NCBI GenBank assembly: GCA_012514635.1
Contig: JAAYZX010000081.1
Location: 1 to 55,040, forward strand
Reading direction: 5' to 3'
DNA: 55,040 nucleotides
From: Actinomycetota bacterium
GTDB lineage: Bacteria; Actinomycetota; Thermoleophilia; RBG-16-64-13
A program made the translations under genes and the position numbers. Positions 8,547-15,256 of this stretch are shown piece by piece (the stretch's first letter is position 1; every line of letters begins with the position of its first letter). The notes beneath the pieces are model-generated. The model was not told the origin of the DNA, did no database searches, and saw only the letters and a program-made list of their open reading frames with translations.

Positions 8547-10247
8547 CTACGGGGAGTCGTGTTGTCCCGACGACGCTTCCTGGAAGAAGCGGGCCACCTC
8601 ATCCACGGCGAACACGGGCCAATTTGCGGGCGCTCCCTTCTGGGTGGCGCTGACGCCGGGTGGGGTATCCAGCACTTCGCCCAAAACGGTTGCCTCTATT
8701 CCGGCAGAGTCGAGAGCGGCTATCAGTTTGGGAGTATCTGTTTGTGCGCAACCAATCAACATGCTCCCCGAGCCGATCAGGCCCAGTGCATCGATTCCCA
8801 GGAGGGAGCACATCCGACGGGTCTCCGGGTACAAGGGGATGCGATCCAACTCCACCAGTATGCCGCGCCCCGCCGCTTCGCTCAATTCCATCACAGCTGT
8901 GGCGAGCCCTCCCTCGGTGACATCGTGCATGGCCCGGACGCCTTGACAACCCAGGGCGATACGGCCTTCAGGGACCACACTGAGCTGATCGAGTAGCGCG
9001 CGACAGGACGCGAGCTCCGTGTCGCTCATTCCTCGGCTGCGTAGCAGAGAGGCGGCTTCTCCGGCAAGCAGGGCCGTGCCTTCCACAGCCACCCTCTTTG
9101 TCAGGAGGAGGCGGTCTCCGGGCCGGAGTTGACATTTGTCGCGCAGGTCCGCACGCTGCAGAGTCCCGGCGGCGAAACCTACGATAACCGGACGCGAAAC
9201 CGCATCGGTGACCTCGGTATGGCCTCCGCAGAGTGTGAGCCCTTCTCGTGTAACCGCCGTCGCCAAGTCGTAGAGAAGGATCTGCGCCTGCGAGGGGGTA
9301 GTACCCATGGGGAGGAGTACGGTGGCCAAGAACCAGCGGGGATGCGCTCCGCAGGTAATGAGGTCGTTGGCGTTGACACGGACTGCATACGCGGCCGGCT
9401 CTGTGGTTGTGAAGGTGATGGGATCCGTCTTGAGGGCCAGAAGCTCGGGCAACGGGTCTTCGGGCGATAACTCCGTTTTACGTCCGGCTGTGAGTTGTAC
9501 GCAGGCGACATCCTGTCCTATACCGGGCCTCACTATCAGCGATGGGTCGTCTGTAGGTAGGCCGGCAAAGAACTGAGACAAGAGGGCCGGGGGCAGCTTT
9601 CCGCCGGGCAAAGGGAGACCCTGCATTACCAGCTGCGGTAGTTCTTCCAGAGAGGCAATGATGTAGTCGGCCTCGTTGCGCCAGGGGGGATGGTTGCTGT
9701 GGGAGACTTTGTTGAGGAGAAGAACTCCAACCGACCCTGCCCTGCGCGCCGCGCATAGATCGAGCACATAGTCACCTACCAGCATGATCTCAGCCGGGGT
9801 TATGCTCAGAAGATCGGCTGCGTGGAGGATGCCGTCTGGGGAAGGCTTGGGTGGCAGCGGTGTATCCCGTGTAATGATGAGATCGAAGTGGGCGGCTGAG
9901 AGATGGGAGAAGTTGGCCAGCGCCCGGTTGATGGAGGCCCGACCGTTGCGCGTGAGCACGCCCAGTTTAACTCCCAGGCTTCGTATCGACGCGATCGCTT
10001 CCTCGGCACCCGGGTTGGGGAAGGAACGGGCGGCTGCTTCCAACTCGAATTCTTCGAGCAGGCCTCCGCAGCGTCTGCGTTCCTCTGCATCGGGACGCGC
10101 TTGGATCCATTCCAGCACCGGATGTCCTGCCGGGCACCCGATGGAGCGGGCAAATCTGGGGAAATCGAGAGCACCGGGATGAGTGAGGGTGCCGTCGAAA
10201 TCGAACAGCACCGCGCTGATTTTGAAGGGCCGGGGCGGGTACTTCAT
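8547..10247 (-). CDS. HAD phosphatase fused to AIR-synthase-related (HypE/ThiL-like) domain
   Basis: One uninterrupted 566-residue frame carries two enzymes. Residues 1 to about 220 are a HAD phosphatase: FDFDGTLTH (Asp16, Asp18), LTRNGR, the lysine in PKPSPDG, and LVGDYVLDLCAARRAG. Residues about 240-560 are an AIR-synthase-related fold: GQDVACVQL, VNANDLITCGAHP, LCGGHTEVTD, LRPGDRLLLTKRVAVEGTA, AMHDVTEGGLATAV and LIGSGSMLIG, closest in layout to HypE and ThiL. The C-terminal Cys tail that HypE uses for carbamoyl transfer is missing, so hydrogenase maturation is unlikely; an ATP-dependent phosphotransfer coupled to dephosphorylation is possible. The ATG lies eight bases after the helicase stop with GGTGAG overlapping it, so the pair is coupled. 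Confidence 0.85.
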   Translation of the reverse strand: MKYPPRPFKISAVLFDFDGTLTHPGALDFPRFARSIGCPAGHPVLEWIQARPDAEERRRCGGLLEEFELEAAARSFPNPGAEEAIASIRSLGVKLGVLTRNGRASINRALANFSHLSAAHFDLIITRDTPLPPKPSPDGILHAADLLSITPAEIMLVGDYVLDLCAARRAGSVGVLLLNKVSHSNHPPWRNEADYIIASLEELPQLVMQGLPLPGGKLPPALLSQFFAGLPTDDPSLIVRPGIGQDVACVQLTAGRKTELSPEDPLPELLALKTDPITFTTTEPAAYAVRVNANDLITCGAHPRWFLATVLLPMGTTPSQAQILLYDLATAVTREGLTLCGGHTEVTDAVSRPVIVGFAAGTLQRADLRDKCQLRPGDRLLLTKRVAVEGTALLAGEAASLLRSRGMSDTELASCRALLDQLSVVPEGRIALGCQGVRAMHDVTEGGLATAVMELSEAAGRGILVELDRIPLYPETRRMCSLLGIDALGLIGSGSMLIGCAQTDTPKLIAALDSAGIEATVLGEVLDTPPGVSATQKGAPANWPVFAVDEVARFFQEASSGQHDSP

Positions 10248-10255
10248 GTTGTGTC

Positions 10256-13200
10256 TCACCAACCATCCCAGCTCATGCCGGGGTCGTCGGGATAGAAACC
10301 GGCTGCCGTAAGATACTCGCGCCAGGGTGATTGCGATACGTTTACGCCGTTCCACTCGCTTACGGTGGTCAGAGGTTGTATTTTGCGGAGGTAACGCAGC
10401 AGCGTTGCCAGAGCTGCTTGGATTGCGTGCGGCTCTGCTTCCTGCGGCGAGGTGAGGCGGGAGCCGGAGTCTGCGGCCACGAGGGTGGGGAACCCTCCAT
10501 CCAGTACGATCCAGGTGGAGGGAATCCGGACGGCAACTGCAGGTCCGTAGATGTTGGCGGGATCGCAGGCGTTGAGAACGGTGGGCTCAGGGGTGCCGTC
10601 GGAGATAGGTTTTGCGATACGGGCTGCGGTTTCGCGTAGGAGCTCTACGGCGTCGGGCAGGGCGAATTGTGGTCCGGGGAGCCCGTGTACAAAGTAGCCG
10701 CGTCTCACTTCTCCGCGCAGTTCTAAGCGCTTGAGCACAGGGAACAGCAAGCTCCATTCCCAGCCGGTGGTCTCGCGATCTATGGCGGCTGGGGTGAGGA
10801 CTCCGTAGCGTGCCAGGAGGAGGTGGGTTTGGAGGAGACGGTCCTGGGAGAGGCGGGTCTGGAGGTCGGCCTCTTCAGGGGCGGCCGACTGCGGATCGCC
10901 TGTGTCCCAGCGATGGAGTAGGGCCCATCGTCCGGTGCGGATGCGCGCCTCCTCCTGTTCTAACCTGCGACGCACGCGCTGCTTGGCGGCGCGTAGTTCC
11001 CGGCGTGGCGGGCGGCCGTATAGATGAAGTGAGGGAACTCGGGGCTCTGTCGGTTGGAGAGGGATATCTGGGCCCAGGAGGAAGCGTCTGGCGACATCGA
11101 TATCGTCATTGGTGACGAGACCGGCGAGCATGAGCTCCAGGAGGGCGGCCTCGGCCTGAGCTATGCTCAGGCCGAGGCCGCCGGCCACCTCCGTTGAGAA
11201 GGCTGCGCCCTCCCGGTGGAGGTGGCCGTGGACTGCGCGCGCAATACCGCCGACCTGTTCCGGGTCGCCTGGAGGCAAAAGCGCAGTCTCCTCTCCGCGC
11301 AGGAGGAAGATGAGGCGGGTGCGACCGGATGCGGCGCCTCCAGTGCAGGCCCAGACGAGCTCGCCGGCAGTGGCCAGTTGGTCTAAGTGGGTGGGCTTAT
11401 AGAGACGAAGCCGCGCAGGCAACACGTCTCGCTCCCATACGACGGCCGGCACGGGAAGGGCCCGCAACTGTTGGAGGACGCAACGTAACCCGGTGACGTC
11501 CTCGAGCTGTGTACCGGGGGTCGCATGTTGCCATTCGGCCAGGAAGACGGCGTAGGCACTGAGGGGTACGGCTTTGATCTCGCGACGCAGCAGGTACAAC
11601 GAATGCCGATGCAGCTGTTGCAGGACGTGGGCGTCCACGTACTCGTCGTTTAGGGGCGCTTGTTGGGAAATGGGCTCTTCGCTGTGGGTCCATGCGGGTG
11701 TACTGGGGGTGAAGTGCCCGTGGGCCAGATGTCTACTCGATACCAGATCATCGAGCAGACGGGACACCCATTCACGCGGCACGGCATAGCGGTGAAGGAT
11801 TGTGTCCAGCGTGACGGGGCCCGATCCGGCGAGAAAACGCTCGAGCACCCGTCGGGCGGCCGCTTCACGTAAGATATCGGGTTTGGCGACGTCGGCGTCC
11901 TCCAGGGCGAAGGCGGTTTCGTATGTGTGGCGGTCTTCGGTTGTGATCCAGCGGGATTCGGGGCCATAAGGAGTGGGAATGAGGACCTCCCCTATTCGCC
12001 CGGCCTGCGCCAGCCGGGCGAGCCATGAGAAGGAGTCGCCCGCCGAGCGCTCGGCCGCTTCATGGCTGCTGAGATCACCGGCTTCTTCCAGGAGGACGGC
12101 CAACTCGTCGGCTGTGCGGGCTTTGGTGCCCGGGTCTGTATGACGCAAACGAGACTCTACTTCATGCAAAGCCTCAGACTTGAGCAGCTGGGAGAGATCG
12201 ACATCTCGGAGGAGTTCTTGGAGCAAATCCAGATTGAGTGCCAGGTCGTGGAAACGACGCTCGGCTCTGGGCGCATCCCATTCGTACAAGTGCACCGTGA
12301 TGAAGTCTCGCATCAGGCTTTGGGCGGCCGGGGACGGAGTGGGAGAGTCCACCACCACCGTCTGTATCTCGCCTCGTTGGATACCTTCAAGCACGCGCTC
12401 GAGATGAGGGAGGTCCATCACGTCCTCGAGGCAGTCGCGGTACGTCTCCAGCAGGATGGGAAAGTCAGGGAAAGCTTTGACGGTCTGCAGGAGGTCGCGG
12501 GCCCGCAGACGTTGCAGCCAGAAAGGGGTTCGTCTGCCTCCGCGCAATCCTGGTAAAAGTAGAGCGCGGGTGGCGTTCTGGCGGAACTGGGCGCCGAATA
12601 CCGCCGATTCGGGAAGACCCGCCAGAATGCGGCGGCGGGCGTCTTGGGGTGTGAGCGCAGTGACGATATCGAGGGGGAGCGCTACGTCAGAATCGGGAAC
12701 GTGCAACAGTATGCCGTCATCGTTGGTCTGGGCCTCGATCTGCGCTCCCGTGTGGTCGTGGAGGATTTCGGCCAGTGCCAGCGCCCAAGGGCCGTTCACC
12801 CTTCCGCCAAAAGGAGAGTGAATGACGAGGCGGGCATCGCCTAGGGGATCGTGGAATGCTTCCAGCACGATGGTGTTGTCCGAGGCGATGGTGCCGATAC
12901 CGTCCAGTTGCGCCGCTATGTAGTCGAGGATTGTGTCGGTGGACGGAGCGTCTAGTGCATATTCTGTGGCCAGCCAGATGCGCAGGGTCTCGAGGTGGGA
13001 GGATGCCCGAGTCTCTTTGGCTGCATCTAATGCTTGGTGGAGCGCCGCGCGGCAGGACTTGACGCCCAGCCTGTCTTTTAGATCCCTGAGCCGTTCGGCC
13101 ACCTCGCGACGGAATGCGCCGACGCGGTAGCCCAGCTCGTACGGTCGCCAGGGATAGTCTCCTCTCCAAAAGGGCATGCGTGGGGTGAAGCCGGGTGCCT

Positions 13201-15256
13201 CCCCTACGATCACGCGATCATCGGTAATCTCCAGGACACGCCAAACCTGGGCTCCCAGCATGAAGGTGTCGCCCACACGGGTTTCGAAGACGAACTCTTC
13301 GTCCAACTCTCCGATACGTGTCTTGCGGTCCGGGAGGAACGCGCCGAAGGAGCCGCGGTCCGTTATGGTGCCTGGATTGGTGACGGCCTGTAGGCGCGAG
13401 CCGGGAAGGGCGGCCAACACTCCGTTTACGCGGTCCCATGACAAACGGGCCCGTAATGCGCGATGGGTGGCGGAGGGATAGCGACCGGCCAGCATGTCGA
13501 GTACGTTGTGGAACACCGCCGGAGTGAGTCCCTCGTAAGGGTACGCTTGGCGGATTAGGTGGAATAGGTCGTCCGCGTGCCACGAGTCGGTGGCCACAGA
13601 TGCCACCACCTGCTGGGCGAGGACATCGAGCGGCGCATGGGGTGTCGGCGTATCCTCCACCTCGCCGCGCAGCATGCCGCCGGCTATTACCGCGGCCTCC
13701 ATCAGGTCCTCGCGGTGCAACGGGAAGATGCGCCCGGTACTGGTGTGGCCTACAAGGTGCCCCGACCGCCCCACGCGTTGAAGTCCCTCCGACACCGCTT
13801 TCGGAGAACCCAGCTGCACCACCAGGTCCACCGAACCGATATCTATGCCCAGCTGCAGCGACGAGGTGCCCACCAGTGCGTCCAGGCGTCCGGCCTTCAG
13901 GTCTTGTTCCATTTCCAGACGAATTTCGCGAGACATGCTGCCGTGGTGGGCACGGATGGGATTCTCGTGGTCACCTTTACCCAGCGCAGTGAGCCCCGCT
14001 CCTGTAGCCACACCCATCTCCATCAGTGCACCGGATTCCCCACGGGCCTCAGCGGCGCGCTGCTCATTGAGGCGATCGGCGGTGCGTTCCGCAAGGCGAC
14101 GGTTATTGGCAAAGATGAGCGTTGTTCGATGCTCGTGAATGAGCCGAGACACGCGTGCGACCAGCGTTGGCCAGATAGAGTCGCCGGGCAGGTTACGGAA
14201 TCCAGGTACCACCGTCTCCACACACAGATCAAGCGGCTTCCGACGACCGGCATCGATAATTCTGACAGGGCGCGGGCGGAGGGATGAGGCCGTTTCCTTG
14301 CAGAGAGAACCGGTTGGGCTGTCGTGGTTATCTGCCATCCACTCGTTGCCTCCCAGGAAGCGTGCTACCTCGTGGAGCGGCTGTGCGGTGGCCGACAGGC
14401 CGATCCGCTGGACGCGGCCTTCCGCTAGGTGCTGCAATCGTTCCAGGCTGAGCGCCAAGTGTACTCCTCGTTTGTTGCCGGCCAGGGTGTGGATCTCATC
14501 GACAATGACCGTGTGGACCGTGCGAAACAGCTCACGTGCGCGTGGGCTCGTAAGCATGAGGTAGAGCGATTCCGGTGTGGTGATGAGAATGTGCGGGGGG
14601 CTGGCGAGGATGGCCCTTCGTTCGCGGGTAGACGTGTCGCCGGAGCGAACGGCTGTGCGGATATCCGGCCACCACATCCGGCCGGCGGCCGTTCCGGCCG
14701 CCGGCGAGAGGCCCGCCCATTCGGCCGCCTCTGTAGCAGGAGATGGGTCACCCTCTGTTGTGGCTTCGGCCTCCGCTCGTGCGCTCGCCCGCTTGATCCC
14801 GGCAAGAGGGGCGCGGAGGTTGCGCTCGATGTCGTTGTTCAGCGCCTTCAGTGGCGAGACATACACCAGGTGGATGCCGCGTGACATCTGTTCTTCCCTG
14901 TGATCCGACTGCGGCGCGGCGCCTGGGCGCGCTGCGCCGGCGGTCGGCCGCCGCCGCTCCTGCTGTAGACTCGGTGGCGTGGGCGGCGACGTCCCCGGGT
15001 TCGGCCGCAGCTCTGTCAGTTCCCGGAAAATCCTGTCGATACCGCAGAGGAAGGCGGCTAGAGTTTTGCCCGAACCGGTGGGGGAGAGCAGAAGAACATG
15101 CTCACCGCGGTGGATTGGCGGCCAGCCCTGTTCCTGAGGTGGTGTGGGTGCGGCGAAGGTTTCCTGGAACCAGGTTCGTACGGGTGCGCAGAATAGACTC
15201 AGGACGTCCGAGGCCGGTGTGGATGACTGTGCGCTATGCTTCATACTGAACATCAT
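10256..15256 (-). CDS. lhr: Large ATP-dependent helicase, Lhr family (full length)
   Basis: Superfamily-2 DNA/RNA-DNA translocase, 1666 aa, longer than the roughly 1500-residue family norm. Walker A SPTGSGKT is at 58-65, motif Ia YVSPLKALNNDIERNLRAPL, motif II VDEIH at 251-255, motif III GLSATAQPL; the RecA2 domain has TLIFANNRR, the SLQLGIDIGSVDLVVQ segment and QRVGRSGH. Lhr-type winged-helix, beta-barrel and C-terminal domains follow (GRWALLHRW, LFPVLKRLELRGEVRRGYFV). Two Ala/Pro/Glu-rich insertions (about 81-122 and 154-195) flank motif Ia, and a third shorter one follows motif III, explaining the extra length. Lhr is implicated in DNA repair. Start: first of two tandem ATGs; the Shine-Dalgarno is weak. 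Confidence 0.95.
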   Translation of the reverse strand: MMFSMKHSAQSSTPASDVLSLFCAPVRTWFQETFAAPTPPQEQGWPPIHRGEHVLLLSPTGSGKTLAAFLCGIDRIFRELTELRPNPGTSPPTPPSLQQERRRPTAGAARPGAAPQSDHREEQMSRGIHLVYVSPLKALNNDIERNLRAPLAGIKRASARAEAEATTEGDPSPATEAAEWAGLSPAAGTAAGRMWWPDIRTAVRSGDTSTRERRAILASPPHILITTPESLYLMLTSPRARELFRTVHTVIVDEIHTLAGNKRGVHLALSLERLQHLAEGRVQRIGLSATAQPLHEVARFLGGNEWMADNHDSPTGSLCKETASSLRPRPVRIIDAGRRKPLDLCVETVVPGFRNLPGDSIWPTLVARVSRLIHEHRTTLIFANNRRLAERTADRLNEQRAAEARGESGALMEMGVATGAGLTALGKGDHENPIRAHHGSMSREIRLEMEQDLKAGRLDALVGTSSLQLGIDIGSVDLVVQLGSPKAVSEGLQRVGRSGHLVGHTSTGRIFPLHREDLMEAAVIAGGMLRGEVEDTPTPHAPLDVLAQQVVASVATDSWHADDLFHLIRQAYPYEGLTPAVFHNVLDMLAGRYPSATHRALRARLSWDRVNGVLAALPGSRLQAVTNPGTITDRGSFGAFLPDRKTRIGELDEEFVFETRVGDTFMLGAQVWRVLEITDDRVIVGEAPGFTPRMPFWRGDYPWRPYELGYRVGAFRREVAERLRDLKDRLGVKSCRAALHQALDAAKETRASSHLETLRIWLATEYALDAPSTDTILDYIAAQLDGIGTIASDNTIVLEAFHDPLGDARLVIHSPFGGRVNGPWALALAEILHDHTGAQIEAQTNDDGILLHVPDSDVALPLDIVTALTPQDARRRILAGLPESAVFGAQFRQNATRALLLPGLRGGRRTPFWLQRLRARDLLQTVKAFPDFPILLETYRDCLEDVMDLPHLERVLEGIQRGEIQTVVVDSPTPSPAAQSLMRDFITVHLYEWDAPRAERRFHDLALNLDLLQELLRDVDLSQLLKSEALHEVESRLRHTDPGTKARTADELAVLLEEAGDLSSHEAAERSAGDSFSWLARLAQAGRIGEVLIPTPYGPESRWITTEDRHTYETAFALEDADVAKPDILREAAARRVLERFLAGSGPVTLDTILHRYAVPREWVSRLLDDLVSSRHLAHGHFTPSTPAWTHSEEPISQQAPLNDEYVDAHVLQQLHRHSLYLLRREIKAVPLSAYAVFLAEWQHATPGTQLEDVTGLRCVLQQLRALPVPAVVWERDVLPARLRLYKPTHLDQLATAGELVWACTGGAASGRTRLIFLLRGEETALLPPGDPEQVGGIARAVHGHLHREGAAFSTEVAGGLGLSIAQAEAALLELMLAGLVTNDDIDVARRFLLGPDIPLQPTEPRVPSLHLYGRPPRRELRAAKQRVRRRLEQEEARIRTGRWALLHRWDTGDPQSAAPEEADLQTRLSQDRLLQTHLLLARYGVLTPAAIDRETTGWEWSLLFPVLKRLELRGEVRRGYFVHGLPGPQFALPDAVELLRETAARIAKPISDGTPEPTVLNACDPANIYGPAVAVRIPSTWIVLDGGFPTLVAADSGSRLTSPQEAEPHAIQAALATLLRYLRKIQPLTTVSEWNGVNVSQSPWREYLTAAGFYPDDPGMSWDGW
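11144..11182. repeat. Perfect 18-bp inverted repeat inside lhr
   Basis: Left arm GGCGGCCTCGGCCTGAGC, loop TAT, right arm its exact reverse complement. It encodes an ordered stretch of a winged-helix domain (GGLGLSIAQAEAALLE), so the palindrome has been kept within codon constraints. It is the longest perfect stem in the window. Confidence 0.88.
14681..14705. repeat. Perfect 11-bp inverted repeat inside an lhr insertion
   Basis: Left arm GCCGGCGGCCG, loop TTC, right arm the exact complement. It falls in the second low-complexity insertion of the helicase, encoding SPAAGTAAG. It shares the GGCGGCC core with other hairpins in the window. Confidence 0.8.

Follow-up and report, generated by a model that had tools for sequence, protein, structure and literature searches.

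A conserved HAD–AIRS fusion protein with a putative built-in clean-up phosphatase

The fusion gene and its domains

The window analysed here is a stretch of 55,040 nucleotides from an Actinomycetota bacterium (contig JAAYZX010000081.1, assembly GCA_012514635.1). On its reverse strand lies a gene that joins a HAD phosphatase domain to an AIRS enzyme in one uninterrupted frame of 566 codons plus stop (Table 1). A Pfam search of the protein returned PF00702 (Hydrolase/HAD, residues 10-171, E 1.3e-19), PF00586 (AIRS, residues 272-362, E 2.1e-9) and PF02769 (AIRS_C, residues 375-529, E 1.1e-18), all above the curated cut-offs; no acylphosphatase domain is among its Pfam matches, and the phosphatase is of the HAD type. 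With PF00586 followed by PF02769 and the conserved ATP/Mg residues, the protein belongs to the AIRS superfamily, and its intact motifs I-IV and helical C1 cap assign the other half to HAD type IA. A single-frame fusion with catalytic motifs in both halves, as described in the initial annotation, is therefore what the window holds.

Table 1 Features of the HAD–AIRS fusion locus in the window.
Feature	Position	Strand	Remarks
HAD-AIRS fusion gene	8547..10247	-	566 aa plus stop; ATG at 10247, TAG ending 8547
HAD (type IA, helical C1 cap) phosphatase domain, residues 10-207	9627..10220	-	PF00702, PF13419; AF2 model
HAD motif I DFDGT, residues 16-20	10188..10202	-	
HAD motif II Thr99 (in LTRN)	9951..9953	-	
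HAD motif III Lys134	9846..9848	-	
HAD motif IV GDYVLD (GDxxxD), residues 158-163	9759..9776	-	
AIRS and AIRS_C domains, residues 213-552	8592..9611	-	PF00586, PF02769; VIA-align to HypE
Gly216-Lys217, AIRS N-terminus	9597..9602	-	Gly-Lys invariant in 68/68 rows of alignment A1; Lys in 58/58 fusions
Asn294-Asp295, invariant	9363..9368	-	AIRS ATP/Mg site by homology
GGHTEVT, residues 341-347	9207..9227	-	GGHTE invariant
TKxxxxE, residues 383-389	9081..9101	-	Lys384, Glu389 invariant
HDVTEGG, residues 441-447	8907..8927	-	
lhr helicase, upstream neighbour	10256..15256	-	8 nt from lhr stop to fusion ATG

The fusion folds confidently in silico (AF2 pLDDT 92.5, pTM 0.88, from an alignment of 68 sequences), and in the model helices 29-90 form the C1 cap between the first and second core strands. 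By VIA-align, the AIRS half is closest to E. coli HypE (2i6r chain D; Z 32.5, 24% identity over 307 residues), followed by ThiL (Z 28.8), PurM (25.6) and SelD (24.8). No solved chain spans both halves among the best 60 of 113 profile matches. The closest solved HAD (2ybd/3m9l/3r09; phmmer E 7.5e-21, residues 12-180) is a stand-alone HAD-IA hydrolase of 205 aa, listed without a specific function, whereas the window protein combines HAD with AIRS; a literature search of partial coverage found no relevant paper on it. Against the phosphoglycolate phosphatase model TIGR01449 the fusion scored 61.8 of 180 bits, below the equivalog cut-off.

The upstream gene, lhr, is probably co-transcribed with the fusion. 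Lhr adjoins the fusion in one of the 78 other fusion loci scanned, that of the same-family genome G007, and lhr thus carries little meaning, as had been supposed when the coupling was first noted as giving no metabolic hint. Counts of 78 and 79 loci, here and below, include eight loci present twice, the figure of 79 adding the window's own L084, and the flanks searched extend up to 8 kb for L004-L061 and at most 1.5 kb for L084-L104.

Distribution of the fusion and constraint on its halves

The fusion is conserved. A scan of species genomes returned 580 relatives, and the 80 listed comprise 58 loci with all or a visible part of the fusion (L004-L061) and 22 with the AIRS half (L062-L083); the long ORF of L082 (1296 aa) was excluded as an apparent chance frame merge. 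Full length in a single frame was found for 48 of the 58 fusion loci. The other ten were left out because they are cut near a contig end (L031, L035, L053, L055, L058), because the frame is split (L059) or because the match starts late owing to a decayed HAD (L043, L050, L054); L046 was also left out. The search for other proteins with the same HAD+AIRS/AIRS_C order, as recommended at the outset, thus gave homologues that are not consistently two genes, and the 48 intact frames rule out a sequencing join, in line with the initial reading. By title, the carriers are Desulfobacterales and other 'Deltaproteobacteria', Actinomycetota, Acidobacteriota and one Spirochaetes bin (Spirochaetota); cultured carriers include Desulfonema magnum (L052) and Desulfatitalea alkaliphila. 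Alignment A1 has 68 rows, 58 of them fusions (56 distinct, there being two identical pairs), and PF00586 and PF02769 both match all 68 members at E 0.001.

Closer to the window's own genome, 61 genomes were searched. The full fusion is present in 12 of the 18 genomes of the window's family and the fusion in 5 of the 9 of family f3, and none was found in the remaining 34. The other six genomes of the window's family are G003 to G007 and G013: the G006 copy is cut at a contig start, the G007 match, which contains a flagged stop, covers residues 3-111 close to the end of a contig, G004 is split, G005 has HAD only, and G003 and G013 (76% and 64% complete) gave no fusion match. The halves lie in three pieces over two frames in G004, and the AIRS half of L059 is split over two frames; these splits may be errors or decayed copies. 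In a phylum-wide draw of 296 genomes, only G000 (the window's own genome), G009 and G014 matched in both halves, and G005 matched across the HAD half only (E 1e-25). Since the AIRS parts of the 18 fusions sampled group as a single clade in the tree (support 100/99), one fusion event followed by transfer would be the simplest history.

The AIRS sites are under the stronger constraint, and the HAD residues are usually kept yet dispensable. All 58 aligned fusions keep the 12 AIRS site residues, and 52 of them keep the six HAD residues, with Asp or Glu accepted at position 163 and Thr or Ser at 99. The remaining rows (L036, L038, L039, L045, L048, L051) have each lost three or more HAD residues. 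Mean identity among these six is 28% for HAD and 71% for AIRS, whereas live pairs in a similar AIRS range (46 pairs, AIRS 69%) average 56% in HAD. At like AIRS identity, the HAD domain thus shows constraint as long as its motifs persist and drifts after their loss. Among the ten loci outside the alignment, HAD is also decayed in L043, L046, L050, L053 and L054, two of which (L050 and L054) have a shortened one; what can be seen of it in L031, L035, L055 and L059 looks intact, and L058 has no visible HAD. Decay therefore affects 11 of the 57 loci with any HAD visible. Three changes are needed to explain the decay labels on the tree, only one of which is forced by well-supported branches.

No close replacement HAD was found in the six aligned decayed-HAD genomes: four show a single additional weak HAD match, one has only the decayed copy, and G087 has no HAD match whatever. 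The reverse separation occurs in G005: a HAD with intact motifs and no AIRS adjoins the MFS gene that in relatives comes after the fusion, and no other genome or locus examined shows a HAD-only form. In 21 genomes with a stand-alone AIRS relative, the HAD of the fusion found some match at E 1e-6 in 9 and a close one in none (best match 6.8e-15). Because of the decayed HADs, the HAD-only relative and the stand-alone AIRS proteins without a close HAD, we read the AIRS half as the probable core and the phosphatase as an accessory that would be selected in most lineages yet be dispensable for AIRS function. PA2803/PcrP (PMC12632274) is a precedent for a HAD protein that lacks catalytic residues, and for that point only.

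Adjoining the decayed-HAD fusions of L050 and L054 is a different HAD gene with intact-looking motifs (L050:3778-4440 and L054:1619-2281, both on the minus strand). The two copies are 61% alike, and the gene occurs at none of the other 56 fusion loci. This gene could take over from the lost domain, which counts against the reading of HAD as dispensable; the two genomes may be related.

Relation to HypE, SelD and ThiL

AIRS enzymes use ATP to activate an amide, phosphate or chalcogen nucleophile, and the known ones serve the synthesis of purines, thiamine diphosphate, selenophosphate and the cyanide ligands of hydrogenase. The fusion has a function distinct from those of HypE and SelD and does not replace ThiL. 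HypE shares its AIRS fold and provides both the best NCBIfam model and the closest fold; against that model (TIGR02124), however, the fusion reached 95 of 251.6 bits, far below the cut-off. HypE has a C-terminal Cys and a hypD partner, whereas the fusion lacks the Cys, as originally remarked for the window protein and now seen in all 58 aligned fusions, and is present where hypD is absent. Of 17 genomes with a full fusion, 5 have no hypD, the window's own among them. Score, Cys and hypD together rule out HypE and hydrogenase maturation, and a HypE variant serving [NiFe]-hydrogenase maturation, which fold and profile rank might otherwise suggest, is the least credible of all the readings weighed here.

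SelD presents a closer parallel at one position. Lys217, kept in all 58 fusions, aligns with Lys20 of E. coli SelD in a profile alignment to 3u0o, a residue that we take to be catalytic in that enzyme and that has no counterpart Lys in HypE in the same alignments. GGH and LTK are also common to the two proteins, as is the AIRS fold. The conserved Cys is not: at the catalytic Cys/Sec position of SelD, a Cys is found at residue 214 in 1 of 58 fusions and at residue 215 in 2 of 58. Identity with SelD was rejected on this ground, on a TIGR00476 score of 66.3 of 125 bits and on the presence of a separate SelD (366 bits) in the window's genome. A SelD-like enzyme could still activate sulfide or another nucleophile to give a thiophosphate-type product, with the HAD half hydrolysing the excess. 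Besides Lys217, GGH and LTK, the many Desulfobacterales among the carriers would suit this alternative, and a thiophosphate is proposed for the archaeal SelD-like family (PMC4210487); the want of a conserved Cys near Lys217 and a fold and profile nearer to HypE than to SelD make it improbable. The window's genome (98% complete) has only three AIRS-domain matches, namely SelD, PurM and the fusion. PurL was not seen in it, which may be a gap.

ThiL also shares the AIRS fold, and the fusion scored 62.2 of 184.15 bits against TIGR01379, below the cut-off. The idea that the fusion replaces ThiL came from the absence of ThiL above cut-off from all 27 genomes of f1 and f3, the families in which the fusion is found (29 of the 61 genomes have ThiL), and from a thiD-thiE operon at L105-L107. 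In those 27 genomes, however, thiE is above cut-off in only 4, with thiamine pyrophosphokinase in 25. Canonical ThiL coexists with the fusion in 24 of the 30 non-actinobacterial carriers searched (two more have a truncated match below cut-off), and thiE or thiD occurs in none of the searched flanks of 79 fusion loci. These results rule out a ThiL replacement and dispose of that form of the initial suggestion of thiamine phosphate as a substrate. They likewise make a thiamine-monophosphate kinase joined to a TMP phosphatase highly improbable, even with the missing ThiL of f1 and f3 and the thiE or thiD linkage of another AIRS family in its favour.

That other family, found in Actinomycetota (L105-L107 and L160-L175; for example L172:1444-2517 and L106:268-1353), has thiE or thiD-thiE adjoining in 18 of 19 loci and a PfkB-type kinase in nine. 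Its profile score is 279, against 145 for HypE and 111 for SelD, and it shares TK..E and MHDxTEGG with the fusion. It differs in lacking HAD, in its thiE/thiD linkage and in forming a separate clade, the grouping with the fusion being not strictly rejected by an AU test (p 0.078). ThiL is above cut-off in 15 of its 19 genomes (17 of 21 with two stand-alone-AIRS genomes included), which weakens the view of this family as a ThiL replacement. In two f3 genomes a HAD-like gene, recognized by eye, lies beside a transporter-like gene that follows the AIRS-thiD-thiE operon (L152:4150-4905 and L153:4228-4983). Four fusion carriers (G066, G072, G076, G088) have their ThiL match in frames of 532-566 aa, roughly 200 aa beyond ThiL, possibly a ThiL fusion.

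Candidate functions of the fusion

Our leading reading, held tentatively, is that the fusion may be a bifunctional AIRS enzyme with a built-in HAD clean-up (editing) phosphatase. The AIRS half would bind ATP and transfer phosphate to a small metabolite, or dehydrate it via a phosphorylated state; the HAD half would dephosphorylate the AIRS product or a misphosphorylated relative of that product. The single AIRS clade, the residue constraint, the HAD drift, the want of a close replacement HAD, the G005 form and an archaeal precedent led us to it. We infer that each half is active, that one metabolite is common to the two and that the HAD step runs in this direction.

The precedent is a SelD-like/acylphosphatase fusion of Thermoproteales, whose phosphatase is suggested to hydrolyse the product of the SelD-like half (PMC4210487); in that paper, the SelD-like family is reported from Sulfolobales and Thermoproteales only. 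It likewise pairs an AIRS-superfamily ATP enzyme with a small-molecule phosphatase, its function being unproven. By that account it differs from the present fusion in having an acylphosphatase-like domain, not HAD, and in keeping the Cys of SelD. Our literature search, of partial coverage, found no paper on a HAD–AIRS fusion. The domains are known and one archaeal AIRS–phosphatase precedent exists; the reaction itself may be new.

The initial annotation offered two steps on one metabolite or the proofreading of a phosphorylated intermediate. As two obligatory consecutive steps of one pathway, a kinase-type reaction followed by a phosphatase, the former agrees with the 52 of 58 rows in which both sites are intact, and the HAD gene beside the fusions of L050 and L054, peculiar to those two loci, would also fit it, as would a non-homologous phosphatase filling in elsewhere. 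The one-sided losses in both directions (eleven decayed-HAD loci, the HAD-only G005) and the stand-alone AIRS proteins without a close HAD weaken the obligatory form, leaving it quite improbable, a little below even the SelD-like enzyme. Proofreading or clean-up, itself a conditional reading, fits better. Separability both ways also fits two unrelated activities on one chain, which tells against editing: two enzymes could have been joined by chance, the join being harmless and no metabolite shared. We consider this unlikely, about half as likely as editing. The 11 decayed HADs, with AIRS intact in the six aligned ones, the HAD-only copy and the 21 stand-alone-AIRS genomes would all be expected of it; it sits poorly with a join kept across at least four phyla, with HAD catalytic residues retained in most rows and with a HAD-only form seen only once.

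A broader proposal, which we regard as somewhat unlikely, is that the fusion, its stand-alone relatives and the ThiE-linked family make up an AIRS branch with a reaction unlike those of HypE, ThiL, SelD, PurM and PurL, in which the fusion would be self-editing, its HAD erasing the AIRS product or a mis-phosphorylated substrate. The conservation of a branch that keeps its ATP-site residues, yet does not match HypE, ThiL or SelD on the marks tested, suggests that Desulfobacterales and Actinomycetota have an AIRS reaction not yet assigned. Having a phosphatase attached limits the candidates, since such an enzyme probably makes or polices some small phosphorylated molecule. Full, decayed-HAD, HAD-only and AIRS-only forms occur as a natural series on which the role of the phosphatase could be tested directly.

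Gene neighbours vary by lineage, with none common across lineages among the fusion loci scanned, which tells against the editing reading. Over the 78 loci (eight duplicates included) they are TetR (16), B12-radical SAM (10), MFS (9), AEC (8), PLP decarboxylase (5), Memo (3) and Lhr (1). In three Desulfobacteraceae bins (L014, L047, L060) the gene immediately upstream of the fusion is Memo-like, with PF01875 matched in L060; Memo is linked to AmmeMemoRadiSam.
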